DNA of 64,000 nucleotides from contig NC_134415.1 in the NCBI RefSeq assembly GCF_030867145.1, positions 7,356,417-7,420,416 on the forward strand, written 5' to 3'. The stretch is from Opisthocomus hoazin (Eukaryota; Chordata; Aves; Opisthocomiformes; Opisthocomidae). Shown piece after piece: positions 1 through 64,000 of this stretch (positions are counted from its first letter, which is position 1; every line of letters begins with the position of its first letter). The position numbers and the translations under genes were made by a program. The notes under the pieces were generated by a model, which was given only the letters and a program-made list of their open reading frames with translations, had not been told where the DNA came from and made no database searches.

Positions 1-80
1 TAGGAGTTTGTGTCAATGGGATGTCCAAAAGAGAAAGGGCACATTTTATACAAACACGTCTTTCATATTTCTTTTCATAG

Positions 81-278
81 AGAGCTAAAGTTTTGGCCAC
101 GTCTGCTTCTGCCTTTCCTGGCTTTACACCGAAGTCTATTCTGAAATCCAGCCTTCGCACCGCAAGCCCAGCAAGTCCCTGTGCATCTCCAAGACAATCA
201 GTTACTCCCCCTCTACGAGCAAAGGAACCTAAACTATCTTTCGTGGAAGAGAACTCGAATGCAAAATGGACTATTGGG
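81..278 (+). CDS. AHCTF1: Unit 1 exon A: isolated ELYS distal exon
   Basis: Acceptor TTTTCATAG and donor GGG|GTAAGC bound 66 codons, phase 0 on both sides. The translation contains GFTPKSILKSSLRT, PPLRAKEPKLSF and NAKWTIG. These match the human ELYS segment FTPQSILRSSLRS...ISFVEED...KW, which lies downstream of the NDRDPRLRE exon in the normal gene. Here it stands upstream of that exon, so the order is scrambled. Confidence 0.85.
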
Positions 279-374
279 GTAAGCTGGGCTGCAGTCGGTG
301 ATTTTTGTATGAATTTGTAAAATCCATGTAAAGGCCCTATAGACTGCGACCTGCTTTAAGTTTTTTTTTTTTTT

Positions 375-478
375 AAAGTTTGTAAACAGCAGTGTCACTG
401 AATTTGTCACTTTGCCACTTAATCTTAAAGTTTGTAAACAGCAGTGTCACTGAATTTGTCACTTTGCCACTTAATCTT
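375..478 (+). repeat. 52-bp perfect tandem duplication, unit 1 only
   Basis: Positions 375-426 and 427-478 are identical 52-mers that begin AAAGTTTGTAAACAGCAG, directly after a poly-T run. Units 2 and 3 have a single copy. It accounts for the offset change from 24,937 to 24,886 between units 1 and 2. It lies in the short intron between exons A and B. Confidence 0.97.
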
Positions 479-522
479 CTTGGAATTAGTTCACTTTCTG
501 ATTTACGCTTTTCATTCACCAG

Positions 523-670
523 AATGATCGTGATCCTCGCTTGAGAGAGAGAGCAGTTGCCAGACATTCCCTGTCAGACCAGTACGGCAAGAGCCTTCCC
601 AGATTTCAAAGGAAGCTGGCTGTAGAGAGAGCCAAGCCTTATCGTTTGCCTTCATCGGCCTTAACAGAAG
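523..670 (+). CDS. AHCTF1: Unit 1 exon B: first copy of the NDRDPRLRE exon
   Basis: Acceptor CATTCACCAG, donor AGAAG|GTAATT, 148 nt ending in phase 1. It encodes [20 protein letters not shown], then [20 protein letters not shown]; the human counterpart begins [20 protein letters not shown]. It is a diverged duplicate of exon 13 of the same unit. In unit 1 it reads PRFQR, while units 2 and 3 read PRVQR (human PRVHR). Confidence 0.88.
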
Positions 671-756
671 GTAATTTTTAAGGGGGGGACCATGATGGGC
701 AACTAACCATCACTTGGATGACCCCAGGCTGATATATTTTCCCTCTTGCTTCACAG

Positions 757-907
757 TTGTACGACCAAAGTCATTATCAACCATAACAAAGCAAGCTAAT
801 GCAGAACGTGTGCGTAAAAGAGCAACTTTGATCAGCAGTGTGTTGTCCAAAATCAGAGAAGTACAGGTAGCAAATGAGCAGAAGACCAGTTTCTAACCAT
901 ATGACAG
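757..907 (+). pseudogene. AHCTF1: Unit 1 exon C: duplicate exon with stop codon
   Basis: Acceptor CTTCACAG, donor CAG|GTGAGC, 151 nt. It continues exon B in phase as VVRPKSLSTITKQ...[21 protein letters not shown], matching human VSRPKPLSAVPKQ...INNVLSKIGEV. The frame meets TAA at 894-896, shortly before the donor. Its paralogue exon 14 reads through the same place as RFSHCDR. The A-B-C block therefore looks like a dead remnant. Confidence 0.85.
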
Positions 908-1839
908 GTGAGCAGCCTTTTAACAAAGTTCATTCTTGAGCTGCCGGTCCTCGTCTCGGACGGGGTTTGCTATTTCACGCATAGATACCCTGGTTAAAGC
1001 TGTCTCCCTGTGCAGGAAAGGTGCGTGTTTTGCTGGCTGAGAACAAGCGGCGGATCCAGAGCACGCAGGCAACGGGGGAGTCCTGACTGGAGGAAGACTG
1101 GAAGCAGTGGGAGAACCAGCACGGTGCTGTGGCTCGGGAGAGTTTCCCGGTAATGGGCATCTTGGCCACATACTGAAACCTCTGGTCTTCTGTGTCTGGT
1201 GTTTTCCGCTTCTTGTCATCTTTCAGATTTGTTGCTCATGCACTTCCCTGCCAGCAATGCACCGACGAGACCCTCCAGGGGATTATAAGCTTGGGTAAAG
1301 CGGCAATAACGTAGCCCTTGGTTAAGGGTCCACAGCGTCATATCCAGTCTCTCATCAGTTCAGCTAACAGAATGTTCCATCTCTGCTTCTAACGACATGA
1401 TCGTTTCTTGGTTTCATTTTCTAATTCTGAGAACTTGTGGCTGAAAGAAAAAATGGCAGTGAATGCACCGAGCCGTGTCAAAGCAGCTCAGACTGTGTTG
1501 TTTCAAAGTCTTGGACAGGGAGAACCAAAGATCAACCCTTTAAAACCAGTCATGAGAGAAACACCCTAGAACTTGGTCCAGCTGTGTTCTTTGTTCTCTG
1601 TTTTGAAAAAATTAACACTGCTTGTACCTTTGGGTGTGTTTCTGAAAGCAACCAATGTCAAAGTGACTGATTTAGCCAGGCAGAAGCATTTCAGCAGGCG
1701 GCTGTGGTGTGCCAGAGCCAAGGAGCGCACGACGAGCTGCTCTGGGAAAGCAGGGGTCTGATGGTGACCTGATATACAGCAATAAATCAGTCAAGGCACA
1801 GCTTCGCTGAGAGGCCGTACGCTGCTTCCCTCCCCGTTG

Positions 1840-2060
1840 CTCTTCAAGAACCATTTCTTTGCTTCAACACGGGTAACCGCCCAACGGGGGAGGCGGGAAA
1901 TTCGCTGTCTGCATGGAGCGGCGATTGCGGGACGAGGACTGGGTGTAATGGGGAGAGCACAGCTTTACAGGAATGCAGGGCGTGTTGAGGGCTTCTCTTC
2001 AGTTTGGCGTGAAGCACGCATCACGCAGCAAAGCTGCTGACTAAACAGAAGTGCTGGATT
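1840..2060 (+). promoter_or_regulatory. Candidate CpG-containing promoter, unit 1
   Basis: A GC- and CpG-enriched patch about 1 kb upstream of the start-codon exon. It contains GCGGGAAA at 1893-1900, a match to the E2F site in reverse orientation, which would suit a cell-cycle gene such as ELYS. No TATA box is evident. A second GC-rich patch, with an inverted CCAAT (ATTGG) at 2771-2775, is an alternative core promoter. Assignment rests on composition and position only. Confidence 0.25.
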
Positions 2061-2671
2061 TCTTCCTGCATAAACCATGACCCCAGGTCTGGAGCTTCTG
2101 CCAGCAGCAAGAAGTATGGTGCCAGCCTTTCGGGTCCAATATCTGCTTCCTGGACACATTTGGACAGGTTATGGGCAATTCTGGGCTTAATTCTGCCAGG
2201 AATGCTGAACGCTGTTTGGGGTGTATGGCTAAACGTGGTCGTTCAGGTGCCTTCTTCGGCCTGTCAGCGTGGGTGATCCTATCGGTCTCGGCTGGCAGCT
2301 GGCACACGCGTTCGGGCACACAACACGGTGTCCTGTTGTGCTCCTCATTCACTTGCTGCGTCAACTGCTTCTCCTGCATTGGTTTGCCTGGGGCCTGCTT
2401 TTCTGAGACAGTGAAACGAACTGAGCCAGGCTTCTGTTAGTTCCATGTCTTCCACCTCGAGAGCTGTTGGATACAGTTTTAGAGAACTAATGGTGACAAG
2501 GCTTTGCTGCTGTGGCATTGTTTTGCTTGTGTGGTGGAGAGAATACTTCAGTGGGTCGGAGAGAGTCACCAAACACCTGGGCGTGTTGCCCGTGCTGCAA
2601 ATGTTTTTGCAGTTCCACTTGTCAGCTTGCTGTTTGTAAAAGTCTGTGTCGGAAGGAGACAGTCCCAAGCC

Positions 2672-2750
2672 GCCTGGACATGGTCTAGGCGTGCTCTAGG
2701 TGCCCCTGCTTGAGCAGGGGGGCTGGGCCAGATGACCTCCAGCGTTCTGG
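2672..2750 (+). mobile_element. CR1 LINE 3' fragment, unit 1
   Basis: Contains GGTGCCCCTGCTTGAGCAGG followed by GGGCCAGATGACCTCCAG, the highly conserved motif just before the CR1 3' end. Only about 80 bp is recognisable. Confidence 0.8.
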
Positions 2751-3006
2751 AAGGCTCTCTCTGCCGTGTGATTGGTGGGGCTGGTGTCCCGCGGCAACGC
2801 TTTGTTACCTCCGGTCTCCCTCTGCGAGGAAGGCTGCGTGTGTGCGCTGCGCTGAGACCCTTCGCACCTGCGTCTGTCCCAGTGCCATCTTTTAAGGAAA
2901 AGCTGTGTAGGAGGTTATTGACTGCACACTGATGAAACTTCTGTCAATGTCAAAAACCTTTATGGCTGCTGTGAGCCCATTTTTGTGTTTTTTTCTTTCT
3001 TTACAG

Positions 3007-3133
3007 TGAAGAATGCAAGGCCTAACAGATCGGGTATCCAGCAGCCTGCTGCAGTTTCCAGAGGCGACTGTTCAGGCCCTTGGGGACGATGAGAACACCC
3101 CACGTTCTGTGCTGCGTGGGAAGCTTTTTAGAG
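3007..3133 (+). CDS. AHCTF1: Unit 1 exon 2: start codon and ELYS N-terminus
   Basis: Acceptor TTTCTTTACAG, ATG at 3013-3015, donor AGAG|GTGAGT, phase 1 end. The protein opens [20 protein letters not shown] and continues [17 protein letters not shown]. Human ELYS opens MRDLRAQVTSGLLPFPEVTL and continues QALGEDE.TLESVLRGK, so this is the genuine start. Confidence 0.92.
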
Positions 3134-6100
3134 GTGAGTGTTTTCCCATAAACTTGGTCTTGGTATGAAGTTGTCATTGCCTCGAGGTTACCTGCAGCAT
3201 CGGGTCATAGTATCAGCTGTGTCAGGTTGATGCAGTTAAGGTGACTCCCCAGGTTTAGAGAGAGCAGAAATGGTGTTTTATCGATTATAAATGCCAATAT
3301 TAAAACTTGAGTATAGTTAAATTTTGAAATTACAAGCACCTGCACCAGTCTTGTGCTATTCAAAGAATTTCCGTGAACACACGGAGTCAGTGAGCCCTCC
3401 TCAATTTCTGATGAAATAAAAGGCAGTTTTCGCAAAAGTACGGGTGTTGTTTGGGGCCGTTTTCATTTGCACCGGCTCAAGCTCTGTGACCATGATAGCA
3501 TCGCAGGCAGAAATCGTTCTACGGCAATGTTCCAGAGGCAAACCCCTTTGCTCTTTCTTTTCTGGTCTGAATAGAAACAGGAGGAAGGGGACAAGGCTGT
3601 TGAGCGCTGCAGCCGTATTTCCAAAGTATTTACTAGGGTGCTGATGAGTACGCAGTGCGAGCTGCTGACAGTGGCTAAGCAGATGAGGTAGTTGCCTTTC
3701 TAGGCTATCTGAAAGTGGAGCTGGGTGCTTGTCTGCATGTCTTGGCTTCTTTTAAGACCAGGTAGAATCTGTCTACCTGGCTGGAAATGCAGGACTTGAG
3801 TTAATACTTCCTTTGAGCTTGAAGGAGTTGAGCACAACGGAATGTGTAAACATCCCGTGTAGAAGTGTAAATTTCCGAACACAGTGCCCATTCTAAGGTC
3901 TGAAGCCCAAATCCCTGCCAAAGCAGGCATGCGTCAAGTACAATTAATAAACTAGAAATGAATTGGCTTAGAGTTGTTCTACTGGAAGTACACTGCAAGG
4001 CTTGTATTCCCATACGCATCTAGATGACTTCTAGCAAAACTAGAAACAAAACAAAGCTGCAGATGGTAGAAAGAGTTTAGATCAATGTATTGTCATCTTT
4101 ATCCCAGACAGTCAAGTGGAAAATAATAAGGTTGTTGATTTTAAAAGATGTATGGCTTGAGAATTTCAATGGGTGATTTGAAAGAACTGACCGGGATTCG
4201 GTAAGGCGGTACTTTTATTGAAGGAAAGGGGCAGTGACTGTGATTTTTTCAGTTGTTTCCAATCTTCCGTTGGAAATGTGCTTTAGTCAGCTTCCGTTTC
4301 TCTTACAGGGAGAAATGGGCTAGCATGGCTGGCACGTGGTCCTCATCTTGAGGTAGTGAACTCTGTGACAGGAGAGCGGCTCTCTGCATACCGTTTCAGG
4401 GGGGCAAAGAAGCAGCCTCCCACTGTTCGTGCGGTAAAGGAGTTTTCCTGGCAGAAGAGAACTGGACTGCTGGTTGGGCTGGAAGAAGCAGAGGGAAGTG
4501 TTCTCTGTCTGTACGACCTTGGAATATCACGAGTGGTTAAAGCAGTTGTTCTTCCAGGAAAGGTACGTACTTTTTCATCAGTTGCATGAGGGAGATTTTC
4601 TATACCACAGAGAAGTGGTTCAGGAGAAACTATGAAGAAGCCTTGGTGGGACAACTCGGTAGTTGTGTGCTGAAGGTTATGAATTCTGGAATAAAGCCAA
4701 AGCTTGTCTGATCTTTTGCTCCTATGCCCTGACTGCTCCTGATTCCAAGCATATTTGGTCTGTTGCTTTCTTTTTGCTACTGGAGAAGTTAGATCAGCAG
4801 AGACAGAGCACAGGTATTGCTGGCTGGACTGTTAACTTCGAAACTGTGAGTGGGAGTAAGCGCAAGAAAAACCAAGCCAACAAAACTTGCACTTAGCCAC
4901 TGTCCATATGATCTGAATTTGTCCTCTAACTCTTACTTCCAAAGTAGACAGAACATCATACATATTTTTAATCTGCCCAACTGTTTCTCTGATTTTCACA
5001 CGGATTGTTTTTTCAAGTCAAATGCAGATCTGTTCTTCACATCACTTTCTGCACTGTTTGTCATGACTGTTTTAAAGGCTTTAATCAGCACCTGAATTTA
5101 GGGACTGTTTTCCATGTGGGTGTGTGTTCTGTGGACAACGAAGTGGTACAGGTTAACGCTAACTTCGAGTACCTCTGGGCCAAGGTGTCAAGCCATTAGT
5201 CTATTAATACAGGGTATTTCTAGTGACTGTACGACTGCCTTTCGGTCCAAATGTGTTTGAAAGTCCTTGGAGTAGCACAGAAGATTGGAAATTGAATTGG
5301 ATTTCTAGGAAATCTGAAACAAAGACAAGTCGTCTGAGTTACCATAGGTCTTTCTAAAGATTCGAATGCTTGTGAGCAAGAGGAAAGGTCAATTGTGTGG
5401 CAGACTGCCAGGGAGTGTAGCCATAGCAAGTGCTGGATCTGGGAGAGGAGAAACCTTTGGGGCTGAGGACTTTGGTTATTTTTGCCTACCTGCGGGGGCA
5501 AAAGAAGTGTATATAAAACCATGCACTACCTTGTGATGCTCACTTCTTTCTTTTCTTTTCATGTACAACTTTGTTGGTGGTTATAACTCCCTGTTTCTGT
5601 TGTGTTGCATTTTGTAAGCAGGCGAAAGGATAGCCCGTGTTCTTTTGTTGTATGGCTTTAGTGCAGGAGTCTTCAGGTGCTTGTCTCTCTGCTCTAGTAG
5701 TCAGTGTTGTCCTGGGATGTGTTGCAGGTGCTGGCAGGTCTGCCTTCGCTTTGTCGTAAAGCCGCATGCAGAGCGCTTTGCGTGTTCAAGAGCGGTGTGC
5801 ACGTCTCCCTTAGCTGGAGCTGGCTTTTCCCCTAACACGCTGCTGTTCTCTTTGCCATTGCTTTAGGCTGGCTTTTTAAATTTTTGTTCACATTCCTAGA
5901 CGTGCTGGTGTGCATTTAAAACTGCTTCTACTTTATCGGGTGGTAATTTTCATTCTAAGTGAGGACTAGTGTACGGTTTACCAAGCTGCTGTCTCCCGTC
6001 AACACTTTCCAGAAGTGTTTCATTCGCATGGAAGTGGTGCGTCTGCCGTGCAACTCAGCCGCTGCCTCGCCTGACGTACAGCCACGATTCATCCTAAGAG

Positions 6101-9100
6101 CTATTTGGCAAAGAAGGCATAGACGGTACCACAGAGCTGATGGGCTGTGAGCAGTGGGAGAACTCGATTTACTTTTATCCTTCAGTCCCTTCAACATGAT
6201 CGAGTTTCTTGCATATGACTAATTTTTTCTGTTTTCTTGGAGTTTGTTATTTCTAAGCAGGTGATGGACGTTGGTAGGCCGTAATACTAGAATGCAGCAT
6301 TGAAGTTAATTCAGTGAAATAACCACAGGAAATCTAGTAAATGGAAGGCAGCAACAGATTTTTGTACAGGCCTCCCGCCCCCCGCCCCCCTCTTTTTGAT
6401 GTGATTGGGAAACAATGCTCTTTTTGAAGTCTTATGATCCTGTGTTTACTTTCTTGTTTGTGACGTGCTAATTCTGCCTTCACCTTGGAGTGATTTCTAT
6501 TTAGCTTGTCAAAGAGCTTCACTATTAACTTGTAGTTTTCCTGTAGGTAACTGCTATAGAACCCATCACTAGTCACGGAGGACCCAGTGTGAGCTCTCAG
6601 CACCTTCACCAGAGCCTGCAATGGCTCTCTGGAGTGGCAGCAGTGGCTACAGATGTTGGTCATCTGCTTCTGGTTGACCTTTGTTTGGATGATTTCTATT
6701 ACAAACAGAATGAGCTAGAAGCATTGGGTAAGCTTGCAGTTTTCAAACTTGCGTTTAACAGTAAGACAAGGTGTGTCTTTGCAATAAACAATATGCATCC
6801 CACTTTGAAGGCAGGAGCGTGCAGCCATTCGCAACTACTCGTTACAGACAGTGGGCTGTCATCGTACAGTCCTGAACCGACGAAAACGGGAGTGGCTGAA
6901 CACTCCTTCTAATGCCGTAAGCGCCTCCCTGCTGCCAAGATCCCTCCGTCACGATGATGCTTGCCAGTGAGGTGTAGAAGTTTTACCGTGTGTGTCAGTG
7001 CAGCTGCCTGATAGGCGGTTGTGTCAGAGGTGCCCTATTTCTCAGGAAAGTTCTGCTGCTTCTGTTAATTGAGTTGGGCAAATTTTAGGCTTGTTTTTTA
7101 AAATAGATCTGACTTCTCAAAAATCGTGCCTTTGGACGAATAACTTCAAATAGCTTCATCAGGAGGCCCAAACTCCTGATTTACAGAGTCCAAGAAGAAT
7201 TTGCTATGAAGGTTAGACTTTTACCTGGTTTTGAAATAGGAGTGAGAATACCTGTCCGATCGGAGAGTTCTTCTGCTTATTGAAGAGGTCCAAAATGGAA
7301 GTGGCAAAGAAGTGTTGCATCAGTGGGTATTTTGCCTGGGATGGTAGAATGAGATTCTACGTGTTGTCATGTCAGTGTTTAGCATGCAATGTAAATGGCA
7401 TAACACATTCCTTTGTTGTGTGGTTCTGTGTGCATAGATCTAGAAGTTTTCACTAGAATTCCTGCTGAAGTTCCACAGAGAAGAGCAGCTGTGACCCGAG
7501 AAAGGAGACATCTCTCTTTCCAACTACAAAATCCTTCAGGATCAGCAATATCAACCCTGCACTACATCAGCAGAAGCAATCAGCTCGTTGTGGGTTTTTC
7601 AGATGGCTACCTGTCCCTATGGAACATGAAAACATTGAAGAGGGAGTAAGTAGGCCTTTACACTTGGCCATGCCTGGAGGTGCAGAGGTCTGTTTGTAGC
7701 TGTTGTAAATTTGTTTGGAAGATATGTTGCATTTTAAATTCAATATTTATGTACGCTACAAGAATAGCAAGAACCTTTTTGCTTGGCAACTGAAGGGATC
7801 AGTTAAGTTGCATATCCTCAGGCAGAGGAGGACATAAATCCAGGTTATTGTGTTAGATAGACAGTAATTTCCTCACCTCTTGACTGTTGCCTAAAATGTA
7901 GTAGCTACCTTGACTCACTTGTTTGAGATGGAAGTCTGACTGTCTGTTCGTTGAGGATAAGCATGTAAGGTGCTGTTTTCTCAGGAGATGCTTCGACAAT
8001 TCTACAAACAGTAGGGTCACCTTTTCTATTTTTTCTCCTTTTTTTTTTTCTTAACTCTGTAGGCACCACTCTCAGCTTGAAGGAGGAAGGATTCCTGTCT
8101 ATGCTGTCACGTTTCAAGAGCCTGAGAACGATCCTCGCAATCGTTGCTACTTGTGGGCTGTTCAGTCTACACAAGAAAGGTGAATACAAACTTACTATGA
8201 GTCACTGTTGTGGTTTTTTTTAAATGTTTCTTCACATACAGATGATACATGTGCGTTTGTTTTGTTTCTTTAGTTGTGCAGGAGATTCTCTCGGGTATGT
8301 AATGTGTTACAATGCAATGTTTACAGGATTGACCAGACATGAAGGGTGAGCTGATAGTTTGTGCCTTGTGGAAGAAGGCAAAGCAACAGTGGCTGTATTA
8401 GTTTGTGCTTGCCTTCTTCATGGCTTTCCTTTGTTTCTTGATGACTGCTTCATGATCTGTTTGATATTTGCACCATGGTATTAAAATAGCATTAGATCGC
8501 CGTTCAGCAGAAGAGTCAGTGGTTTCCTGATGGGCTAATGAATGGAATCAGTGTGTGGAAGGGCTCGGTGTATGCAAGAGAGGGACTGGAACTTGCTGGG
8601 AAGGGAAGGAAGAAGAGGAGAAAGATCTCTCTCTCCTTCAGCATCAGCAAGCTATTGAATCAGCTCAGCCATTCGTAGAGTGACAATCTTTTAAAGTTTG
8701 ACTTTAAAGCAGTTTTGATCAAGAACTCTCCACCGTGAAGAGCAAGTTCCAATAATGTTGAGTTCATGCAAGAGGTTAAGGCTTTCAAATTGCATGGTTA
8801 GCATTTGCCCCTGCAGCTGTTAGTGTCAACACTGCCTTCTTCATGTTTCAGTGGCTAAATGTGACCAATTACCAGGTTGTGGGAAGCAGTGTTTTTCTTT
8901 TCAGCAAGAGCCTGCTATGAAGAAATGAAAACGAGGACTATAAAGCAGCTCTATAATCAAATGTCATCGTTTATACCTTTTTCAGTGAAGGTGATGTTGT
9001 GAGCTTGCATCTGTTGCAGTTAGCATTTGGTGACAGAAAACGCTTGGCATCAGGACAAGTCATGTATGAGGTAAGACGTGCATGTATGTGAAAAGACGAA

Positions 9101-25556: not shown

Positions 25557-25642
25557 GTAATTTTTAAGGGGGGGACCATGATGGGCAACTAACCATCACT
25601 TGGATGACCCCAGGCTGATATATTTTCCCTCTTGCTTCACAG

Positions 25643-50439: not shown

Positions 50440-50525
50440 GTAATTTTTAAGGGGGGGACCATGATGGGCAACTAACCATCACTTGGATGACCCCAGGCTG
50501 ATATATTTTCCCTCTTGCTTCACAG

Positions 50526-50676: not shown

Positions 50677-51661
50677 GTGAGCAGCCTTTTAACAAAGTTC
50701 ATTCTTGAGCTGCCGGTCCTCGTCTCGGACGGGGTTTGCTATTTCACACATAGATACCCTGGTTAAAGCTGTCTCCCTGTGCAGGAAAGGTGCGTGTTTT
50801 GCTGGCTGAGAACAAGCGGCGGATCCAGAGCACGCAGGCAACGGGGGAGTCCTGACTGGAGGAAGACTGGAAGCAGTGGGAGAACCAGCACGGTGCTGTG
50901 GCTCGGGAGAGTTTCCCGGTAATGGGCATCTTGGCCACATACTGAAACCTCTGGTCTTCTGTGTCTGGTGTTTTCCGCTTCTTGTCATCTTTCAGATTTG
51001 TTGCTCATGCACTTCCCTGCCAGCAATGCACCGACGAGACCCTCCAGGGGCTTATAAGCTTGGGTAAAGCGGCAATAACGTAGCCCTTGGTTAAGGGTCC
51101 ACAGCGTCATATCCAGTCTCTCATCAGTTCAGCTAACAGAATGTTCCATCTCTGCTTCTAACGACATGATCGTTTCTTGGTTTCATTTTCTAATTCTGAG
51201 AACTTGTGGCTGAAAGAAAAAATGGCAGTGAATGCACCGAGCCGTGTCAAAGCAGCTCAGACTGTGTTGTTTCAAAGTCTTGGACAGGGAGAACCAAAGA
51301 TCAACCCTTTAAAACCAGTCATGAGAGAAACACCCTAGAACTTGGTCCAGCTGTGTTCTTTGTTCTCTGTTTTGAAAAAATTAACACTGCTTGTACCTTT
51401 GGGTGTGTTTCTGAAAGCAACCAATGTCAAAGTGACTGATTTAGCCAGGCAGAAGCATTTCAGCAGGCGGCTGTGGTGTGCCAGAGCCAAGGAGCGCACG
51501 ACGAGCTGCTCTGGGAAAGCAGGGGTCTGATGGTGACCTGATATACAGCAATAAATCAGTCAAGGCACAGCTTCGCAGAGAGGCCGTACGCTGCTTCCCT
51601 CCCCGTTGCTCTTCAAGAACCATTTCTTTGCTTCAACACGGGTAACCGCCCAACGGGGGAG

Positions 51662-51669
51662 GCGGGAAA
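51662..51669. promoter_or_regulatory. E2F-like site in candidate promoter, unit 3
   Basis: GCGGGAAA, conserved in all units. Confidence 0.2.
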
Positions 51670-52440
51670 TTCGCTGTCTGCATGGAGCGGCGATTGCGGG
51701 ACGAGGACTGGGTGTAATGGGGAGAGCACAGCTTTACAGGAATGCAGGGCGTGTTGAGGGCTTCTCTTCAGTTTGGCGTGAAGCACGCATCACGCAGCAA
51801 AGCTGCTGACTAAACAGAAGTGCTGGATTTCTTCCTGCATAAACCATGACCCCAGGTCTGGAGCTTCTGCCAGCAGCAAGAAGTATGGTGCCAGCCTTTC
51901 GGGTCCAATATCTGCTTCCTGGACACATTTGGACAGGTTATGGGCAATTCTGGGCTTAATTCTGCCGGGAATGCTGAACGCTGTTTGGGGTGTATGGCTA
52001 AACGTGGTCGTTCAGGTGCCTTCTTTGGCCCGTCAGCGTGGGTGATCCTATCGGTCTCGGCTGGCAGCTGGCACACGCGTTCGGGCACACAACACGGTGT
52101 CCTGTTGTGCTCCTCATTCACTTGCTGCGTCAACTGCTTCTCCTGCATTGGTTTGCCTGGGGCCTGCTTTTCTGAGACAGTGAAACGAACTGAGCCAGGC
52201 TTCTGTTAGTTCCATGTCTTCCACCTCGAGAGCTGTTGGATACAGTTTTAGAGAACTAATGGTGACAAGGCTTTGCTGCTGTGGCATTGTTTTGCTTGTG
52301 TGGTGGAGAGAATACTTCAGTGGGTCGGAGAGAGTCACGAAACACCTGGGCGTGTTGCCCGTGCTGCAAATGTTTTTGCAGTTCCACTTGTCAGCTTGCT
52401 GTTTGTAAAAGTCTGTGTCGGAAGGAGACAGTCCCAAGCC

Positions 52441-52519
52441 GCCTGGACGTGGTCTAGGCGTGCTCTAGGTGCCCCTGCTTGAGCAGGGGGGCTGGGCCAG
52501 ATGACCTCCAGCGTTCTGG
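52441..52519 (+). mobile_element. CR1 LINE 3' fragment, unit 3
   Basis: Copy of the unit 1 fragment. Confidence 0.8.
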
Positions 52520-52774
52520 AAGGCTCTCTCTGCCGTGTGATTGGTGGGGCTGGTGTCCCGCGGCAACGCTTTGTTACCTCCGGTCTCCCTCTGCGAGGAA
52601 GGCTGCGTGTGTGCGCTGCTCTGAGACCCTTCGCACCTGCGTCTGTCCCAGTGCCATCTTTTAAGGAAAAGCTGTGTAGGAGGTTATTGACTGCACACTG
52701 ATGAAACTTCTGTCAATGTCAAAAACCTTTATGGCTGCTGTGAGCCCATTTTTGTGTTTTTTCTTTCTTTACAG

Positions 52775-52901
52775 TGAAGAATGCAAGGCCTAACAGATCG
52801 GGTAACCCGCAGCCTGCTGCAGTTTCCAGAGGCGACTGTTCAGGCCCTTGGGGACGATGAGAACACCCCACGTTCTGTGCTGCGTGGGAATCTTTTTAGA
52901 G
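52775..52901 (+). CDS. AHCTF1: Unit 3 exon 2 (start codon 52781)
   Basis: [20 protein letters not shown] then [11 protein letters not shown] replaces the conserved K of RGK. Confidence 0.92.
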
Positions 52902-55900
52902 GTGAGTGTTTTCCCATAAACTTGGTCTTGGTATGAAGTTGTCATTGCCTGGAGGTTACCTGCAGCATCGGGTCGTAGTATCAGCTGTGTCAGGTTGGTG
53001 CAGTTAAGGTGACTCCCCAGGTTTAGAGAGAGCAGAAATGGTGTTTTATCGATTATAAATGCCAATATTAAAACTTGAGTATAGTTAAATTTTGAAATTA
53101 CAAGCACCTGCACCAGTCTTGTGCTATTCAAAGAATTTCCGTGAACACGCAGAGTCAGTAAGCCCTCCTCAATTTCTGATGAAATAAAAGGCAGTTTTCG
53201 CAAAAGTACGAGTGTTGTTTGGGGCCGTTTTCATTTGCACCGGCTCAAGCTCTGTGACCATGATAGCATCGCAGGCAGAAATCGTTCTACGGCAATGTTC
53301 CAGAGGCAAACCCCTTTGCTCTTTCTTTTCTGGTCTGAATAGAAACAGGAGGAAGGGGACAAGGCTGTTGAGCGCTGCAGCCATATTTCCGAAGTATTTA
53401 CTAGGGTGCTGATGAGTACGCAGTGCGAGCTGCTGACAGTGGCTAAGCAGATGAGGTAGTTGCCTTTCTAGGCTATCTGAAAGTGGAGCTGGGTGCTTGT
53501 CTGGATGTCTTGGCTTCTTTTAAGACCAGGTAGAATCTGTCTACCTGGCTGGAAATGCAGGACTTGAGTTAATACTTCCTTTGAGCTTGAAGGAGTTGAG
53601 CACAACGGAATGTGTAAACATCCCGTGTAGAAGTGTAAATTTCCGAACACAGTGCCCATTCTAAGGTCTGAAGCCCAAATCCCTGCCAAAGCAGGCATGC
53701 GTTGTCGCATTAAAGGGGGGGGGTGTAACGAGAGTCTGATATTCAACTTGCCTGCCAGAGCCCTTCCAAGGACTTTCACTGAAACAGTTTTGCAAAGTTG
53801 AAACAATAGGTAATTTATTCAAGCGACAGTTATCACAGATTCGGAATTGCCGTTCATAAATTCACTGTCTACAAAAGTTGAGCTCAAAGTAATAGTTTAG
53901 CGCTTTAGTTAACAATGTGTTCCCGGGGCTATGTCTGACAAAGTCAGATGAGCGACTCTTACCAAAAAGGCGTCCCTTCTTGGGGGGGGAAGAGAGGTTC
54001 AGGCCCGTCGACCCGTCCGTCAGGTGAAGTTCTCGCTTGGCTCCTGCTCCCAAAGAGAGTTTTCAAGTGCCAATTTTTATATGTTTGGAAATCTTTTTGC
54101 GAGGTGGGACTAAGTCAATTATTGTGTATCGATTGGCTCTTGGCATGGAATGTCGTGTTGTCAGAAGCGGGACTCAGCAGTGTGACACGCCTTCGGAGCG
54201 GGCATCTTGATATGTGTATTCGGGGGCCATCTGTGCTTTGTCCAAAGCAATCTCTGGCTGCGCAGCCTCCGCGGCGCCCCACAGATCACTGAGTTTACAG
54301 TGATGGGCTATTCCCCCTTACTTTTGTCTGGTAATATAAGCACCAGTTATTTACTTCTTTTGTTAGCTCTTCGGCTCTTGACAACCTCAGTCCGTTTGTC
54401 TTTTGTCTTGCATTCGACAAGTCCATCAAGGCCATCGATTACATGCGTCAAGTACAATTAATAAACTAGAAATGAATTGGCTTAGAGTTGTTCTACTGGA
54501 AGTACACTGCAAGGCTTGTATTCCCATACGCATCTAGATGACTTCTAGCAAAACTAGAAACAAAACAAAGCTGCAGATGGTAGAAAGAGTTTAGATCAAT
54601 GTATTGTCATCTTTATCCCAGACAGTCAAGTGGAAAATAATAAGGTTGTTGATTTTAAGATGTATGGCTTGAGAATTTCAATGGGTGATTTGAAAGAACT
54701 GACCGGGATTCGGTAAGGCGGTACTTTTATTGAAGGAAAGGGACAGTGACTGTGGTTTTTTCAGTTGTTTCCAATCTTCCGTTGGAAATGTGCTTTAGTC
54801 AGCTTCCGTTTCTCTTACAGGGAGAAATGGGCTAGCATGGCTGGCACGTGGTCCTCATCTTGAGGTAGTGAACCCTGTGACAGGAGAGCGGCTCTCTGCA
54901 TACCGTTTCAGGGGGGCGAAGAAGCAGCCTCCCACTGTTCGTGCGGTAAAGGAGTTTTCCTGGCAGAAGAGAACTGGACTGCTGATTGGGCTGGAAGAAG
55001 CAGAGGGAAGTGTTCTCTGTCTGTACGACCTTGGAATATCACGAGTGGTTAAAGCAGTTGTTCTTCCGGGAAAGGTACGTACTTTTTCATCAGTTTTATG
55101 AGGGAGATTTTCTATACCACAGAGAAGTGGTTCAGGAGAAACTATGAAGAAGCCTTGGTGGGACAACTCGGTAGTTGTGTGCTGAAGGTTATGAATTCTG
55201 GAATAAAGCCAAAGCTTGTCTGATCTTTTGCTCCTATGCCCTGACTGCTCCTGATTCCAAGCATATTTGGTCTGTTGCTTTCTTTTTTGCTACTGGAGAA
55301 GTTAGATCAGCAGAGACAGAGCACAGGTATTGCTGGCTGGACTGTTAACTTCGAAACTGTGAGTGGGAGTAAGCGCAAGAAAAACCAAGCCAACAAAACT
55401 TGCACTTAGCCACTGTCCATATGATCTGAATTTGTCCTCTAACTCTTACTTCCAAAGTAGACAGAACATCATACATATTTTTAATCTGCCCAACTGTTTC
55501 TCTGATTTTCACACGGATTGTTTTTTCAAGTCAAATGCAGATCTGTTCTTCACATCACTTTCTGCACTGTTTGTCATGACTGTTTTAAAGGCTTTAATCA
55601 GCACCTGAATTTAGGGACTGTTTTCCATGTGGGTGTGTGTTCTGTGGACAACGAAGTGGTACAGGTTAACGCTAACTTCGAGTACCTCTGGGCCAAGGTG
55701 TCAAGCCATTAGTCTATTAATACAGGGTATTTCTAGTGACTGTACGACTGCCTTTCGGTCCAAATGTGTTTGAAAGTCCTTGGAGTAGCACAGAAGATTG
55801 GAAATTGAATTGGATTTCTAGGAAATCTGAAACAAAGACAAGTCGTCTGAGTTACCATAGGTCTTTCTAAAGATTCGAATGCTTGTGAGCAAGAGGAAAG

Positions 55901-58900
55901 GTCAATTGTGTGGCAGACTGCCAGGGAGTGTAGCCATAGCAAGTGCTGGATCTGGGAGAGGAGAAACCTTTGGGGCTGAGGACTTTGGTTATTTTTGCCT
56001 ACCTGTGGGGGCAAAAGAAGTGTATATAAAACCATGCACTACCTTGTGATGCTCACTTCTTTCTTTTCTTTTCATGTACAACTTTGTTGGTGGTTATAAC
56101 TCCCTGTTTCTGTTGTGTTGCATTTTGTAAGCAGGCGAAAGGATAGCCCGTGTTCTTTTGTTGTATGGCTTTAGTGCAGGAGTCTTCAGGTGCTTGTCTC
56201 TCTGCTCTAGCAGTCAGTGTTGTCCTGGGATGTGTTGCAGGTGCTGGCAGGTCTGCCTTTGCTTTGTCGTAAAGCCGCATGCAGAGCGCTTTGCGTGTTC
56301 AAGAGCGGTGTGCACGTCTCCCTTAGCTGGAGCTGGCTTTTCCCCTAACAAGCTGCTGTTCTCTTTGCCATTGCTTTAGGCTGGCTTTTTAAATTTTGGT
56401 TCACATTCCTAGACGTGCTGGTGTGCATTTAAAACTGCTTCTACTTTATCGGGTGGTTATTTTCATTCTAAGTGAGGACTAGTGTACGGTTTACCAAGCT
56501 GCTGTCTCCCGTCAACACTTTCCAGAAGTGTTTCATTCGCATGGAAGTGGTGCGTCTGCCGTGCAACTCAGCCGCTGCCTCGCCTGACGTACAGCCACGA
56601 TTCATCCTAAGAGCTATTTGGCAAAGAAGGCATAGACAGTACCGCAGAGCTGATGGGCTGTGAGCAGTGGGAGAACTCGATTTACTTTTATCCTTCAGTC
56701 CCTTCAACATGATCGAGTTTCTTGCATATGACTAATTTTTTCTGTTTTCTTGGAGTTTGTTATTTCTAAACAGGTGATGGACGTTGGTAGGCCGTAATAC
56801 TAGAATGCAGCATTGAAGTTGAAGTTAATTCAGTGAAATAACCACAGGAAATCTAGTAAATGGAAGGCAGCAACAGATTTTTGTACAGGCCTCCCGCCCC
56901 CCGCCCCCCTCTTTTTGATGTGATTGGGAAACAATGCTCTTTTTGAAGTCTTATGATCCTGTGTTTACTTTCTTGTTTGTGACGTGCTAATTCTGCCTTC
57001 ACCTTGGAGTGATTTCTATTTAGCTTGTCAAAGAGCTTCACTGTTAACTTGTAGTTTTCCTGTAGGTAACTGCTATAGAACCCATCACTAGTCACGGAGG
57101 ACCCAGGGTGAGCTCTCAGCACCTTCACCAGAGCCTGCAATGGCTCTCTGGAGTGGCAGCAGTGGCTACAGATGTTGGTCATCTGCTTCTGGTTGACCTT
57201 TGTTTGGATGATTTCTATTACAAACAGAATGAGCTAGAAGCATTGGGTAAGCTTGCAGTTTTCAAACTTGCGTTTAACAGTAAGACAAGGTGTGTCTTTG
57301 CAATAAACAATATGCATCCCACTTTGAAGGCAGGAGCGTGCAGCCATTCGCGACTACTCGTTACAGACGGTGGGCTGTCATCGTGCAGTCCTGAACCGAC
57401 GAAAACGGGAGTGGCTGAACACTCCTTCTAATGCCGTAAGCGCCTCCCTGCTGCCAAGATCCCTCCGTCACGACGATTCTTGCCAGTGAGGTGTAGAAGT
57501 TTTACCGTGTGTGTCAGTGCAGCTGCCTGATAGGCGGTTGTGTCAGAGGTGCCCTATTTCTCAGGAAAGTTCTGCTGCTTCTGTTAATTGAGTTGGGGCA
57601 AATTTTAGGCTTGTTTTTTAAAATAGATCTGACTTCTCAAAAATCGTGCCTTTGGACGAATAACTTCAAATAGCTTCATCAGGAGGCCCAAACTCCTGAT
57701 TTACAGAGTCCAAGAAGAATTTGCTATGAAGGTTAGACTTTTACCTGGTTTTGAAATAGGAGTGAGAATACCTGTCCGATCGGAGAGTTCTTCTGCTCTT
57801 TGAAGAGGTCCAAAATGGAAGTGGCAAAGAAGTGTTGCATCAGTGGGTATTTTGCCTGGGATGGTAGAATGAGATTCTACGTGTTGTCATGTCAGTGTTT
57901 AGCATGCAATGTAAATGGCATAACACATTCCTTTGTTGTGTGGTTCTGTGTGCATAGATCTAGAAGTTTTCACTAGAATTCCTGCTGAAGTTCCACAGAG
58001 AAGAGCAGCTGTGACCGGAGAAGGGAGACATCTCTCTTTCCAACTACAAAATCCTTCAGGATCAGCAATATCAACCCTGCACTACATCAGCAGAAGCAAT
58101 CAGCTCGTTGTGGGTTTTTCAGATGGCTACCTGTCCCTATGGAACATGAAAACATTGAAGAGGGAGTAAGTAGGCCTTTACACTTGGCCATGCCTGGAGG
58201 TGCAGAGGTCTGTTTGTAGCTGTTGTAAATTTGTTTGGAAGATATGTTGCATTTTAAATTCAATATTTATGTACGCTACAAGAATAGCAAGAACCTTTTT
58301 GCTTGGCAACTGAAGGGATCAGTTATGTTGCATATCCTCAGGCAGAGGAGGACATAAATCCAGGTTATTGTGTTAGATAGGCAGTAATTTCCTCACCTCT
58401 TGACTGTTGCCTAAAATGTAGTAGCTACCTTGACTCACTTGTTTGAGATGGAAGTCTGACTGTCTGTTCGTTGAGGATACGCATGTAAGGTGCTGTTTTC
58501 TCAGGAGATGCTTCGACAATTCTACAAACAGTAGGGTCACCTTTTCTATTTTTTCTCCTTTTTTTTTTTCTTAACTCTGTAGGCACCACTCTCAGTTTGA
58601 AGGAGGAAGGATTCCTGTCTATGCTGTCACGTTTCAAGAGCCTGAGAACGATCCTCGCAATCGTTGCTACTTGTGGGCTGTTCAGTCTACACAAGAAAGG
58701 TGAATACAAACTTACTATGAGTCACTGTTGTGGTTTTTTTTAGATGTTTCTTCACATACAGATGATACATGTGCGTTTGTTTTGTTTCTTTAGTTGTGCA
58801 GGAGATTCTCTCGGGTATGTAATGTGTTACGATGCAATGTTTACAGGATTGACCAGACATGAAGGGTGAGCTGATAGTTTGTGCCTTGTGGAAGAAGGCA

Positions 58901-61900
58901 AAGCAACAGTGGCTGTATTAGTTTGTGCTTGCCTTCTTCATGGCTTTCCTTTGTTTCTTGACGACTGTTTCATGATCTGTTTGATATTTGCACCATGGTA
59001 TTAAAATAGCATTAGATCGCCGTTCAGCAGAAGAGTCAGTGGTTTCCTGCTGGGCTAATGAATGGAATCAGTGTGTGGAAGGACTCAGTGTATGCAAGAG
59101 AGGGACTGGAACTTGCTGGGAAGGGAAGGAAGAAGAGGAGAAAGATCTCTCTCTCCTTCAGCATCAGCAAGCTATTGAATCAGCTCAGCCATTCGTAGAG
59201 TGACAATCTTTTAAAGTTTGACTTTAAAGCAGTTTTGATCAAGAACTCTCCACCGTGAAGAGCAAGTTCCAATAATGTTGAGTTCATGCAAGAGGTTAAG
59301 GCTTTCAAATTGCATGGTTAGCATTTGCCCCTGCAGCTGTTAGTGTCAACACTGCCTTCTTCATGTTTCAGTGGCTAAATGTGACCAATTACCAGGTTGT
59401 GGGAAGCAGTGTTTTTCTTTTCAGCAAGAGCCTGCTATGAAGAAATGAAAACGAGGACTATAAAGCAGCTTTATAATCAAATGTCATCGTTTATACCTTT
59501 TTCAGTGAAGGTGATGTTGTGAGCTTGCATCTGTTGCAGTTAGCATTTGGTGACAGAAAACGCTTGGTATCAGGACAAGCCATGTATGAGGTAAGACGTG
59601 CATGTATGTGAAAAGACGAAAAGAGTCATTTTCTCTAAGTGAGCAGCAGTTAACTTGTCAGGGCAAATCTTTACCATTAAAATTCAGAGATGCCTAGCAA
59701 GAAAAAATAATCTTTGGCTGAGTCGTCTTGGGCATGGCCTTTGTCCTTTCCTAAAATACAGTCCTATATCTTTTGTTTTATATTCTTGTTTTTCTTTTGC
59801 GCTCTCTTAACTGGACTTCAGATGAAATGTACCTGCAATGTCTCTTCAGTGTTGATCCTGTAACTTAGTTGCTATAAAGATAGCTCGTTCTACTTTTTGG
59901 CTGGGTTACCTACGACATCTACTCTTAAAGCCAGCAAGAGAAGTCAAGACAGCACACAGTGGTATGACTTGGTCCAAAGAGGATACATAATTTTTTAGAA
60001 CCGGCTCCAAAAATGTTGTGTTTAAAATAGAGAGGAGGTATCATTATATCTCAGCTGTCAAACAGATTGAAGATGCATCTGTGTAACGTCTGATTCCATT
60101 CAGTAGTATGCTTGAAATTCTTCCAAAATCAGTCAGAGCAATTCTTTCCTCCTGTTTTTATACTTTCTCTTGCATAGTTTCAGTAGGTACGGAACGAAAT
60201 AGGGGTGATTCTTGTATCATGGTCCTCTGTTTTTTTAGGGACTATGCGTTGTTTTATTTCTTGGGATGAGATGAAGTTTTGACCTTGGTCATCGCATATA
60301 GGACAGGTCTTTCCTCATTTGTAAATGTTGCTTTTGAATAGAGAAAAGTTTGGTGTTTGGAAAAGGCGGTGTTTCTTTAAAAGGCATTGTCTCTCAGGGC
60401 ACCAAGGTGTAAATATCTTCAAGTGATTCCGCAGGTTCTAAATATGGATGTCATCTCTTTATGGGCATTTTTTTTCTGACCTAAATATACAGTGCTCTGG
60501 AGGCACGGAGCAGCCTGACTGGCTTTTTAGTTGTAAAAGGGCTTTCGTTGCAGTGCACTTCTGCATCTCTTGTAGTGCCCTATAAGCCCTGTGGCAGGTT
60601 GATAGGAGGAAGTGCCTTTAATACTTCTTCAGTTTCATTTTTGAACTTCTGCTTTGGTTTATCCTCTTTCAAAAGTTCTTTGTGAGTACAGTCTTCGCAG
60701 TGGCCAAGACAAGACATTGTAGTGTGGGCTGCTTTGCAAGAAAAACCCAGTTGCCTATAGCCATTCCTCTCGTGGCTATTTTATTCTGTCTTGACACTTT
60801 CATGTTAAAATGTGGGACCTTTTCCTACTTGGCAGTTCTTTGCCTTGGTCATCTTCCTTTCCTGAACAAGATGTGCCGAGTGTCAGTTTTCACCTCTGAG
60901 GGCTGAAATGTTTCAGCAGCTTTTAAATGTGGGTCTGCTAGAAATTCCACTTGACGCTCTTTTAGAAAGGCACCCAAAGTGATTAAATGAGGTTCTTGTG
61001 TTTGTGACCGGCGACAGCGGTGGGGTGGTTAATGGAAGACTTTCAACCCTCTGCAGACTGCGCAACCAGTAATACATTGCCAGGCTTCTAGGAGGTGTGA
61101 GGCACCAGTCTCTGCATTTGGGATATTTTTACTCCCCTGCTGTTTCTGCTTCCCTGTGAGGAGCGTTGTGGAAGATGGAACCAGGAACCAATCTTACAAG
61201 GTGTTGCAAGGAAGAACTGAACAGCCAGGCCCTCTGTGGAGAAAAGACAGGTTCTTCAGCCACCTTCCAAATATACTACAGCAGCGCTTTACATTCCAGG
61301 AATCAGACTTGTGGCTATGAAACAGGGCATCTTTGACTTTGTATCGCAGTAATAAGTCACAAACAGGACTTGTGGAACACATGGCACAAATGAGCATCAA
61401 CTGTTGCTTTCAAGGCTGTTGTAAGTCTGTGCTCAAGTGATTAGCCTAACAGTGTATTTATGATCTGCTTTCAAAGACCTTTTTTGTACCATCTCAGCAG
61501 TTGCTAAACGTAGTGCATTGAATTGTCGAGCTGCTATTTGTCCACAATACACACATTCCTGCGTTGCATGGTAGACAGTTTGAACGAATCCTGTATTTGG
61601 AAAGCCAGTATTTCAGTTAATGCTTAATTAGAAAATGGTGGTATCAGAGGCGTAACACAGTCCTGCCAGGGTTTGTGTACATCTCAAAGTAGTTGGCTGG
61701 CTCTGTAATAATATGTGATGGTAAAGTCATAGTCTGTGTGCATCGCACGTCCTCTCTGTTTTCCCCTGGTGCTGTTGGCTGTGCTTGGTGAAGGAGCTGA
61801 GGGATATTTCACCTGTTAGTCTCTGACAAGATTAGAGGAGGAGGTGGTAAGAGCTTACATGGTTTGAAAGAAGACGGTTAATCAGTCAGCAGTTCTCATA

Positions 61901-62558
61901 GCTACTAGAGAGGGATGCGTTTTCAGTGTAGCGGTGTGCCTATAGGTAATACCTCTCGACAGAGCTTTAGGTGCAGTAATGGCATGACTTCTCTAATTTG
62001 GTCAGTTCTGTAATGAAGACATGCAGCGTAGATCTCCCAGCTCTGGGAAATTCAGGATTGGTTTTGTAAATTTTGCATTATTTCTCCTATTATTAATACT
62101 ATCAGTATTAGTAGTGTGATTAATAAAAATTTTCATATTCAATTTGTAAGTCTCTCTCCCTTTTCCTCCTTTACCCTTCCTCTGGTGGGAGGGTGAGGTG
62201 TTAATAGAGCGTCTGCCACTGAGTTTGTTGCCGCCCTGCTTGAAGTGGTGACATGGAGTTTCTCTTTGCCATCCAGAAGTAAGCTCGTGGGGAATATACA
62301 ATATAGTAAACATGTTCTATTAGATAGATGCATTCTTTGCTATTTCAGTATACTGTATGTTCGTACCTCAACTGGCCCTTTCCTCTCTTCTTTTATTTTG
62401 TCCGCAGGGTTTGGAATACTGTGGCGAAAAGTACAGTTTAGATCTCGCGGATGGAGTCCTTCCCTTGAGAGGGCAGACCAGCAATATCAAGCTACTCAGC
62501 TGTCAGACTGTAGAAAAATTTTGCAACCACGTTAATGGAGACGAAAGCGTTAATGAAG
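52781..62558 (+). CDS. AHCTF1: Unit 3 ELYS-like gene, exons 2-8 (runs off window)
   Basis: Segments 52781-52901, 54821-55074, 57066-57246, 57958-58165, 58583-58699, 59506-59590 and 62408-62558 form an open propeller frame; later exons lie beyond 64000. It is the most diverged copy. Replacements include K to N in exon 2, S to P and V to I in exon 3, S to R in exon 4, two R to G in exon 5, L to F in exon 6, A to V and V to A in exon 7 and T to I in exon 8. The solo LTR sits in the intron after exon 2, antisense to the gene, and could affect splicing or transcription. Confidence 0.6.
53703..54443 (-). mobile_element. Solo LTR of an endogenous retrovirus, unit 3 only
   Basis: A 741-bp insertion that is absent at the same site in units 1 and 2. 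Its ends are TGTCGC...TTACA on the plus strand, i.e. TG...CA termini. It is flanked by a 5-bp target duplication TGCGT (53698-53702 and 54444-54448). On the minus strand there is a TATA box (complement of 54075-54081) and AATAAA (complement of 53814-53819), so it is transcribed leftward. No internal retroviral genes remain, as expected after LTR-LTR recombination. A 5-bp duplication is usual for ERVL-like elements, but the family is not established. Confidence 0.93.
54821..55074 (+). CDS. AHCTF1: Unit 3 exon 3: propeller
   Basis: [15 protein letters not shown] and [11 protein letters not shown]; two replacements and two silent changes from units 1 and 2. Confidence 0.95.
57066..57246 (+). CDS. 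AHCTF1: Unit 3 exon 4: propeller
   Basis: Reads [12 protein letters not shown] replaces S. Confidence 0.95.
57958..58165 (+). CDS. AHCTF1: Unit 3 exon 5: propeller
   Basis: Reads [14 protein letters not shown]; two R to G replacements from units 1 and 2. Human reads MRQGRHLCFQL. Confidence 0.95.
58583..58699 (+). CDS. AHCTF1: Unit 3 exon 6: propeller
   Basis: [18 protein letters not shown] replaces L. Candidate microexon downstream at 58794-58814. Confidence 0.95.
59506..59590 (+). CDS. AHCTF1: Unit 3 exon 7: propeller
   Basis: Ends [14 protein letters not shown] and A replace A and V of the other units. Confidence 0.94.
62408..62558 (+). CDS. AHCTF1: Unit 3 exon 8: propeller
   Basis: [14 protein letters not shown] replaces T. 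Last exon of this unit inside the window. Confidence 0.95.
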
Positions 62559-62903
62559 GTGTGTTGTGATGTCCATGTGTGGCTATTCTAAAAGAAATGG
62601 TTTTGGAATCTAAGCAATGAATGCTGTTCTGTACCCGAGTCCAAAAGTCTTAAATATCAGTAGAGACATGCTTGTTTGGGTTATTGAAAAAGAAAAATCG
62701 GGTGCTTAAGTTGTGTGTGACTTCTTTAAAGGAAAAAAATAGGTTTTCTTGTATGCTGGCTGACAGGCTATAGCGATGTATGGTGGGGTCATCTGTATAA
62801 TGCTGGTCAGTCGTTTTATTCCTCCAGCTGTCATCTTTGAAGCATGAGAGAACTCCCTCCTTTGCTTAGGAACGCTACCTGATTTTTTTTTTCCCTGTTC
62901 AAA

Positions 62904-63654
62904 CAGGGCAGCTAGTTACAAGTGGTGTTCCTCAGGGCTCAGTATCAGGGCCAGTTCTGTTTAATATCTCTGTCAGTTGTCTGGACGAGGGGATCGAGTG
63001 CACCCTCAGTGAGTTTGTAGAAGACACTAAGGTAGGTGGGAATGTTGATGTACTTGAGGGTAGGGAGGCTCTACAGAGGGGTCTGGACAGGCTGGATCTA
63101 TAGGCTGAGGCCATTGCATGAGATTCAACACAGCCAAGTGCCGGGTCGTGCGCTTAGGTCACAACAACCGTGTGTAATGCTTCAGGCTTGGGGCAGAGTG
63201 TCTGGAAAGCTGCCTGGAGGAAAAGGACCTGGGAGTGCTGGTTGAGAGTCGGGTGAGTATGAGCTGGCCGTGCGCCCAGGTGGCCAAGAAGGCCAACGGC
63301 CTCCCTGCTTGTAGCAGAAATAGTGTGGCCAGCAGCAGCAGGGTAGGGATCATCCCCCTGTACTGGGCCCCGGTGAGGCCTCACCTTGAAGAACAGCTTT
63401 ACTTTAGGCTCCTCACTACAAGAAAGACCTTGAGTTGCTGGAGCGTGTCCAAAGAAGAGCAGCAAGGAAGCTGTTTAAGCATTGGAACAGGCTGCCCAGG
63501 GAAGTGGTTGAGACACCATCCCTGGCGGTATTGAAAAGATGTGTAGAGGTGGTGCTTAAGGGCGTGGTCTGGTGGTGGACTTGGCAGGGTTAGGTTTACG
63601 GCAGGGCTCGATGATCTTCAGGGTCTTTTCCAGCCTAAATAATTCTATGATCTA
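62904..63654 (+). mobile_element. CR1 LINE 3' fragment in intron 8, unit 3
   Basis: Third copy of the same CR1 fragment, [12 protein letters not shown] to AATTCTATGATCT. Confidence 0.93.
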
Positions 63655-64000
63655 CCTGTCCATTTTTTCCTCTCTAAATCTAATAGGTTCCTACACCTGC
63701 AAGTTTTGAAAGCGATAGATTTCCTTGTCCACATAGACAGTCGAAACTCTGGTGGTGTCTTTCATTATGTTGCAATAATTAAATACATATCTCTGGGTTT
63801 ACAAATTTGATTCTGCTCTGACCATATCTTTGAGCCTGCTGCAGTGGTGGCTTTCACAGCCTTTTGTTCTGACTGCATTCTTCACCTTCTGTCTCTCCTT
63901 ACTGGCCTTACCTTCTGCCTGACGTTGTAAAGAAGACACTTGCATGGTGTTTCTAGGCTATTTCTGTTCATTAGGGTTGATTTAGTCCTGAACTGGCAAC

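Follow-up and report, generated by a model that had tools for sequence, protein, structure and literature searches.

A tandem array of ELYS-derived genes without solenoid exons in the hoatzin genome

Introduction

ELYS (AHCTF1, MEL-28), a nucleoporin of the Y complex, initiates the assembly of nuclear pores once mitosis is over, and the animals in which it has been studied cannot do without it. A stretch of 64,000 bp from the hoatzin, Opisthocomus hoazin (GCF_030867145.1, contig NC_134415.1, positions 7,356,417 to 7,420,416; the window in the following), contains several altered copies of this gene. An array of ELYS-derived genes without the solenoid that docks the protein to the pore is unexpected, and it raises the question of what these copies are, how they arose and whether they are still alive. 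The answer that we consider probable is a lineage-specific tandem array of a derived ELYS paralogue, a partial copy lacking the solenoid, which would have arisen by exchange at or near AHCTF1 on a large autosome.

Results

The window contains head-to-tail units

Comparison of the window with itself revealed a direct tandem repeat with a period of 24,886 and then 24,883 bp, all matches having the same orientation. Positions 425-28820 match 25311-53702 with 99.49% identity, 3928-13468 match 54442-64000 with 98.8% and 1-426 match 24938-25364 with 98.1%. Four units of about 24.88 kb are represented head to tail: the tail of one, two complete units, which are 99.5% identical to each other, and roughly 13.8 kb of the one that follows. 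No clear gene conversion tracts between units were found when differences per kb were inspected. The identity of the gene was established with phmmer against ELYS chains of the PDB, with the Pfam family ELYS-bb and with exon-by-exon tblastn using chicken and great tit proteins; the chain searches and tblastn placed the ELYS exons collinearly on the plus strand. An earlier note on this DNA, made from its letters, had claimed at least three head-to-tail 24.88-kb ELYS units, and both the repetition in the sequence and the gene identity were borne out.

The same note described a "rearranged" gene filling the window with no other gene. The latter part agrees with a search of the first 25.4 kb against Pfam in all six frames, which found no second gene besides ELYS (other hits were far under the cut-off: RVT_1, E 0.074, and a WDR36 propeller, E 0.081, on an ELYS exon). 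The former needs correction, since each unit consists of a single gene in regular order and a further 1.9 kb or so up to the next start codon. The rearrangements within the unit are the loss of the solenoid exons and of much of the C-terminal region, a duplication of the exons for chicken residues 980-1078 (89-90% alike), and one additional exon for 1181-1250.

The copies are intron-containing genes with open reading frames

Copies 1 and 2 are each predicted to encode 1035 amino acids with a single terminal stop, and the reading frame is open in both complete copies (2/2) as well as over the 372 amino acids of copy 3 (coordinates are given in Table 1). Each of the two complete copies has 19 introns, in contrast to the intronless state that is the hallmark of a retrocopy, and all 19 introns of copy 1 are of the GT-AG type (19/19). 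P0121, the closest hoatzin protein cluster (see below), guided the choice of exons; agreement with its length is therefore partly built in. No such circularity attaches to the lack of stops and frameshifts.

The propeller exons are joined in frame to the exon for chicken residue 980 (SLSQ/NDRDP) across a short intron that occupies the place of the solenoid exons. At the 3' end, exons lying between two genes complete the model; their counterparts from the preceding copy are found at 81-278 and 523-670. In an alternative reading these exons are orphans and the gene ends at the stop within the ancestral last exon (831 amino acids in a model without that exon); in the P0121 model, by comparison, they are spliced in as 3' exons. 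Either ending, at the ancestral last exon or at the downstream exons, may be used. Read-through past the donor of exon A2 (17344-17494) would add one residue and then a stop. P0122, P0126 and the short forms of several birds end at this place, and several altered bird forms end near residue 1079 like P0122; the shared ending suggests a common isoform that ends in this intron.

The predicted protein keeps the propeller and loses the solenoid

P0121 spans the complete ELYS-bb model (1-489/489, E 1e-251), in line with a retained N-terminal seven-bladed beta-propeller, and the propeller exons of the window match ELYS chains of the PDB. The alpha-solenoid domain PF13934 was found by Pfam in P0122 and chicken ELYS and was not found in P0121; neither tblastn with chicken residues 542-979 nor the six-frame Pfam search detected solenoid sequence in the unit. 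Basic stretches are retained (tblastn), with chicken KRGRP reading KRGRT in the window; RGRP is the core of an AT-hook. The array gene resembles ELYS in its propeller, exon order, intron positions in the propeller and basic C-terminal pieces, and differs from it by the missing PF13934, the loss of most of the C-terminal region, the broken last exon, its multiple copies and its faster evolution.

Annotated ELYS-like proteins of the hoatzin

Among 5.8 billion proteins the closest was P0121, a hoatzin "ELYS-like" cluster of 10 sequences, followed by P0122, a hoatzin cluster of eight sequences with 1079 amino acids; cluster members may be isoforms and are not copy counts. P0121 belongs to the same gene family as the array, with 991/1035 residues identical to copy 1 and 995/1035 to copy 2, whereas P0122 still has the solenoid and ends close to residue 1079. 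In the propeller, copy 1 shows 96.7% identity with P0121 and 85.0% with P0122, and no other row compared exceeds 84.7%; propellers of other birds are 74-85% identical when poor models are set aside. Over 372 amino acids, P0121 differs from copy 3 at four residues, from copy 2 at eight and from copy 1 at 10. Since only 4/372 residues separate P0121 from copy 3, P0121 is no proof of a fourth copy: it could represent copy 3 as found in a different assembly or haplotype, or else an additional copy.

Both clusters lie on a contig of 132,848,825 bp, which is the size of a macrochromosome; the chicken ELYS record lies on a contig of 110,642,502 bp, which we take to be chromosome 3. Full-length and altered ELYS are found on a contig of the same size in six species (Larus michahellis, Theristicus caerulescens, Numenius arquata, Porphyrio hochstetteri, Ammospiza nelsoni and Pithys albifrons). 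ELYS-like proteins of altered form on contigs of 41-45 Mb, which may be autosomes or W chromosomes, are P0176 and P0180 (Morus bassanus), P0150 (Tyto alba), P0114 (Strigops) and P0179 (Pterocles). In Morus bassanus, Phalacrocorax aristotelis and Tyto alba the contigs of the altered copies, some of them of 41-45 Mb, are not that of the full-length gene, and sex linkage could still apply in some species.

Altered ELYS copies in other birds

From 249 proteins fetched, 66 short or odd bird proteins were picked and compared with chicken ELYS; these are gene models, some of low quality or partial, and several come from one species. Propeller and solenoid without the tail are present in 51/66, the opposite of hoatzin P0121. 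Six have propeller and tail, the solenoid being missing in five and less than half covered in one (superb starling), four have all three parts, four the propeller only and one mostly solenoid. The junction of residues 541 and 980 also occurs in annotated proteins of other birds, directly in curlew and penguin and with additional residues between the two parts in great tit and ibis. The claim of the earlier note that AHCTF1 is single-copy is contradicted by the annotation of many birds, and its proposal of an amplified, intron-containing and structurally altered AHCTF1-derived family is supported, in a bird.

A tree of the propeller was calculated from 55 rows (58 of 59 passed the gap filter; Alca, one low-quality Spheniscus row and the 827-amino-acid Tyto row were then dropped). 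The hoatzin forms cluster with a Shimodaira-Hasegawa-like approximate likelihood ratio test (SH-aLRT) value of 99 including P0122 and of 100 for the three solenoid-less ones. Altered forms of ibis, curlew, gulls and rail cluster with the full-length ELYS of their own species or family, and four passerine short forms make up one clade (100) inside the passerines. The altered forms of gannet and cormorant cluster together (99), apart from their full-length rows. Long branches lead to altered forms (cormorant stem 0.22, Porphyrio 0.13, solenoid-less hoatzin clade 0.13), but they are also seen in certain full-length rows (Cuculus 0.084, Egretta 0.083); the end branch of Sarcoramphus is 0.009. A single ancient origin of the solenoid-less form was rejected, its log-likelihood being 250.57 lower (approximately unbiased test, p-AU 1.39e-99; two trees, quick search). 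Because the propeller tree places solenoid-less rows with their own lineages and rejects one clade, it suggests recurrent duplication in birds as the simplest account; an older duplication with gene conversion from full-length neighbours could give the same picture. The solenoid-less great tit record has an extra branch length of only 0.0019 and may be a gene-model error.

Three further observations concern these bird proteins. P0016, P0019 and P0024 (Aptenodytes, Ciconia boyciana) are ELYS-like proteins fused to a kinesin motor (PF00225), perhaps because the model reads through into an adjacent kinesin gene. Short ELYS-like proteins form very large clusters in great cormorant (P0199, 40 members) and yellow-legged gull (P0132, 63 members), a hint of much larger amplification there, although members are not copy counts. 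In Lamprotornis superbus one model (P0001) spans an ELYS copy and runs into the next N-terminus (residues 2083-2208 correspond to chicken 1-126), as head-to-tail copies predict.

Traces of selection

The propeller of copy 1 differs at 82 residues from the consensus of 26 full-length-type rows (among them the great tit record whose solenoid is missing), and 23 of these differences fall at the 277 invariant sites, where 42.0 were expected. Of the 22 changes common to copy 1 and P0122, two are at invariant sites (11.3 expected). If the 53 replacements fixed in the solenoid-less copies were neutral, about three stops and four to five frameshifts would be expected in the propeller; none was seen (p about 6e-4, assuming the indel rate taken from introns). 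Exon indels between copies amount to 0 in all three pairs. This does not look like the sequence of an old pseudogene. We read it as a gene that stayed open during most of its history and whose constraint has been weak or different from the loss of the solenoid onwards; present-day constraint is unproven because the copies differ with about equal rates of nonsynonymous (dN) and synonymous (dS) change.

Nine of the 60 copy-1 changes that are not common to P0122 lie together in propeller residues 448-471 (24 residues, exon 14920-15101); this count was made post hoc.

Discussion

These genes are already in public annotation as "ELYS-like"; what they form here is a tandem array in which the paralogues of an essential gene have lost a domain. 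Searches of an open-licence library gave no description of an amplified or solenoid-less bird AHCTF1 family. In the reading that we favor, a derived solenoid-less paralogue arrayed in the hoatzin lineage, the units would have arisen by unequal exchange at the DNA level at or near the AHCTF1 locus, and the array would sit on a large autosome and not on the W or a germline-restricted chromosome.

The roles of the ELYS domains come from domain-deletion work (PMC4920428). A protein without the alpha-helical domain would accordingly be expected to enter the nucleus and touch chromatin weakly, and not to dock at pores or kinetochores. In the Xenopus pore, the ELYS propeller contacts the Nup160 propeller and the solenoid contacts Nup37 and Nup160 (PMC8976044); given these contacts, the 1035-amino-acid protein would retain one Nup160 surface together with the basic tail and lose most of its docking surface. 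If expressed, it might bind some ELYS partners without building pores, as a competitor or modifier, and it could presumably not replace ELYS.

Several findings weigh against this reading. The 20-exon model leans on a RefSeq prediction and not on RNA, and one donor of copy 1 is weak (GTTAGC). The predicted structure is unusable (mean predicted local distance difference test score, pLDDT, of 40.7), and the domain-deletion result was obtained with worm MEL-28 and HeLa fragments, that is with another protein. The ancestral last exon and the second copy of exon A2 are both broken. Of the 53 changes fixed only in the solenoid-less copies, 21 are at invariant sites (27.1 expected, p 0.06), as are seven of the 23 sites varying among copies (11.8 expected, two-sided p 0.06). 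Copies 1 and 2 differ by 15 nonsynonymous and three synonymous changes (dN 0.0063, dS 0.0041), copies 1 and 3 by 12 and two. Exons are slightly more divergent than the rest of the unit (17/2686 versus 93/22195, one-sided p 0.08; for copies 1 and 3, 14/1117 versus 101/11922, p 0.11).

Part of this evidence fits a recently silenced array, functional until lately and now amplified passively under neutral drift, which we regard as possible but rather unlikely. Such silencing would account for dN being about equal to dS between copies, for the two broken exons, for the loss of much of the C-terminal region and for the only weak avoidance of invariant sites along the solenoid-less branch. Neither stops nor exon indels occur in two full copies and in the 372 amino acids of the third, nor does the 1035-amino-acid RefSeq record have any; this speaks against it but weighs little, because with so few changes between copies no more than about one or two stops are to be expected.

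An array that, if expressed, would raise the dosage of an extra propeller protein, for a tissue such as the germ line and with a new role away from the pore, seems unlikely. It is consistent with the retention of the whole propeller and with faster change than in full-length ELYS (the hoatzin solenoid-less branch against that of Sarcoramphus, 0.13 versus 0.009); the near equality of dN and dS among copies does not favor it.

More doubtful still is the idea that ELYS is caught in recurring genetic conflict in birds, in which tandem, truncated and fast-evolving half-molecules would disturb nuclear assembly or chromosome segregation in germ cells and thereby either distort segregation or suppress such distortion. 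The AHCTF1 region would then shed copies with propeller and solenoid, able to dock without the chromatin tail, or, in the hoatzin, with propeller and tail, able to reach chromatin without docking. Sd-RanGAP of Segregation Distorter is likewise a truncated tandem duplicate of a nuclear-transport gene; it differs from the hoatzin array in being a known driver whose effect has been demonstrated. In Drosophila, Ran, Ntf-2, importin-alpha and Nup93 have given rise to recurrent, fast-evolving duplicates, for which meiotic (germ-line) conflict was proposed; these are mostly retrogenes, and among 30 nucleoporins only Nup93 was duplicated (PMC8645118). The bird ELYS copies resemble them in fast evolution and in their probable recurrence and differ in being tandem copies made at the DNA level.

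That the repetition is an assembly artefact, produced by mis-joined haplotypes or reads, is very unlikely: the three copies differ from one another in exonic and other bases (see copies 1 and 3 above), copy 3 alone carries an insertion of about 740 bp, the RefSeq cluster P0121 has 10 members (which may be isoforms), and similar families are annotated in other birds. Least credible is that the array is ampliconic and sits on the W or on a chromosome restricted to the germ line, a location raised in the earlier note and left without support: against a general resemblance to ampliconic arrays and the altered copies on 41-45 Mb contigs in Tyto alba and Morus bassanus stand the 132.8-Mb contig of P0121 and P0122, presumably the chromosome of the window, and the six species with both forms on a same-size contig.

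The altered copies across bird orders would form a natural series showing which parts of ELYS are separable, and this series would also ask whether vertebrate nuclear-pore genes duplicate under germ-line conflict, as proposed in Drosophila. They are a warning, too, that annotation and read mapping of bird AHCTF1 mix paralogues.

Features of the window

Table 1. Units, predicted exons and other features of the window (positions in bp; residue numbers refer to chicken ELYS).
Feature	Position	Strand	Basis
Tail of preceding unit	1..424	+	98.1% match to 24938-25364
Unit 1 (start set arbitrarily at repeat register)	425..25310	+	Self-comparison, unit alignment
Unit 2	25311..50193	+	Self-comparison, unit alignment
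Unit 3, ends at window edge	50194..64000	+	Self-comparison, unit alignment
Copy 1 coding span, 20 exons, 1035 amino acids (predicted model)	3013..25972	+	tblastn- and P0121-guided boundaries
Copy 1, exons 1-7	3013-3133, 4309-4562, 6547-6727, 7438-7645, 8063-8179, 8986-9070, 11879-12029	+	
Copy 1, exons 8-14	14699-14831, 14920-15101, 15578-15639, 16241-16369, 17112-17259, 17344-17494, 18474-18648	+	
Copy 1, exons 15-20	19236-19530, 20307-20440, 20899-21063, 25018-25215, 25409-25556, 25902-25972	+	
Beta-propeller exons of copy 1 (11 exons, residues 1-541)	3013..16369	+	PDB chain matches, tblastn
Intron of 742 bp where full-length ELYS has the solenoid exons (residues 542-979)	16370..17111	+	tblastn
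Exons A1 and A2 (residues 980-1079)	17112..17494	+	PDB chain match, tblastn
Exons of basic C-terminal piece (parts of residues 1922-2025, 2137-2178, 2180-2214)	19236..21063	+	tblastn
Remnant of ancestral last exon with in-frame stop and frame shift, skipped in 1035-amino-acid model	21750..21944	+	tblastn, two frames needed
Second exon set (residues 1181-1250, 980-1028), 3' exons in RefSeq model	25018..25556	+	tblastn, P0121
Decayed second copy of exon A2, in-frame stop	25642..25794	+	
Copy 2 coding span, 20 exons, 1035 amino acids, no internal stop	27899..50855	+	
Copy 3, first seven coding exons, 372 amino acids, no stop; remainder cut off by window end	52781..62558	+	
Insertion of about 740 bp in intron 1, copy 3 only	53703..54441	+	Self-comparison, unit alignment

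No tRNA was found in the window, and there was no Rfam match at the gathering threshold. About 496 bp of the insertion in copy 3 are 94.4% identical to the opposite strand of the units at 23855-24350 and 48737-49232. Upstream of exon 1 (1001-3000) the GC content is 0.51-0.54 and the observed/expected ratio of CpG is 0.50-0.56, which is modest; a promoter there is only putative. Upstream of the broken last exon, at 21520-21732, lies a tandem repeat of about 106 bp (about 91% alike). The start of unit 1 (373-478) contains a perfect tandem duplication of 52 bp, which is lacking in the next unit.

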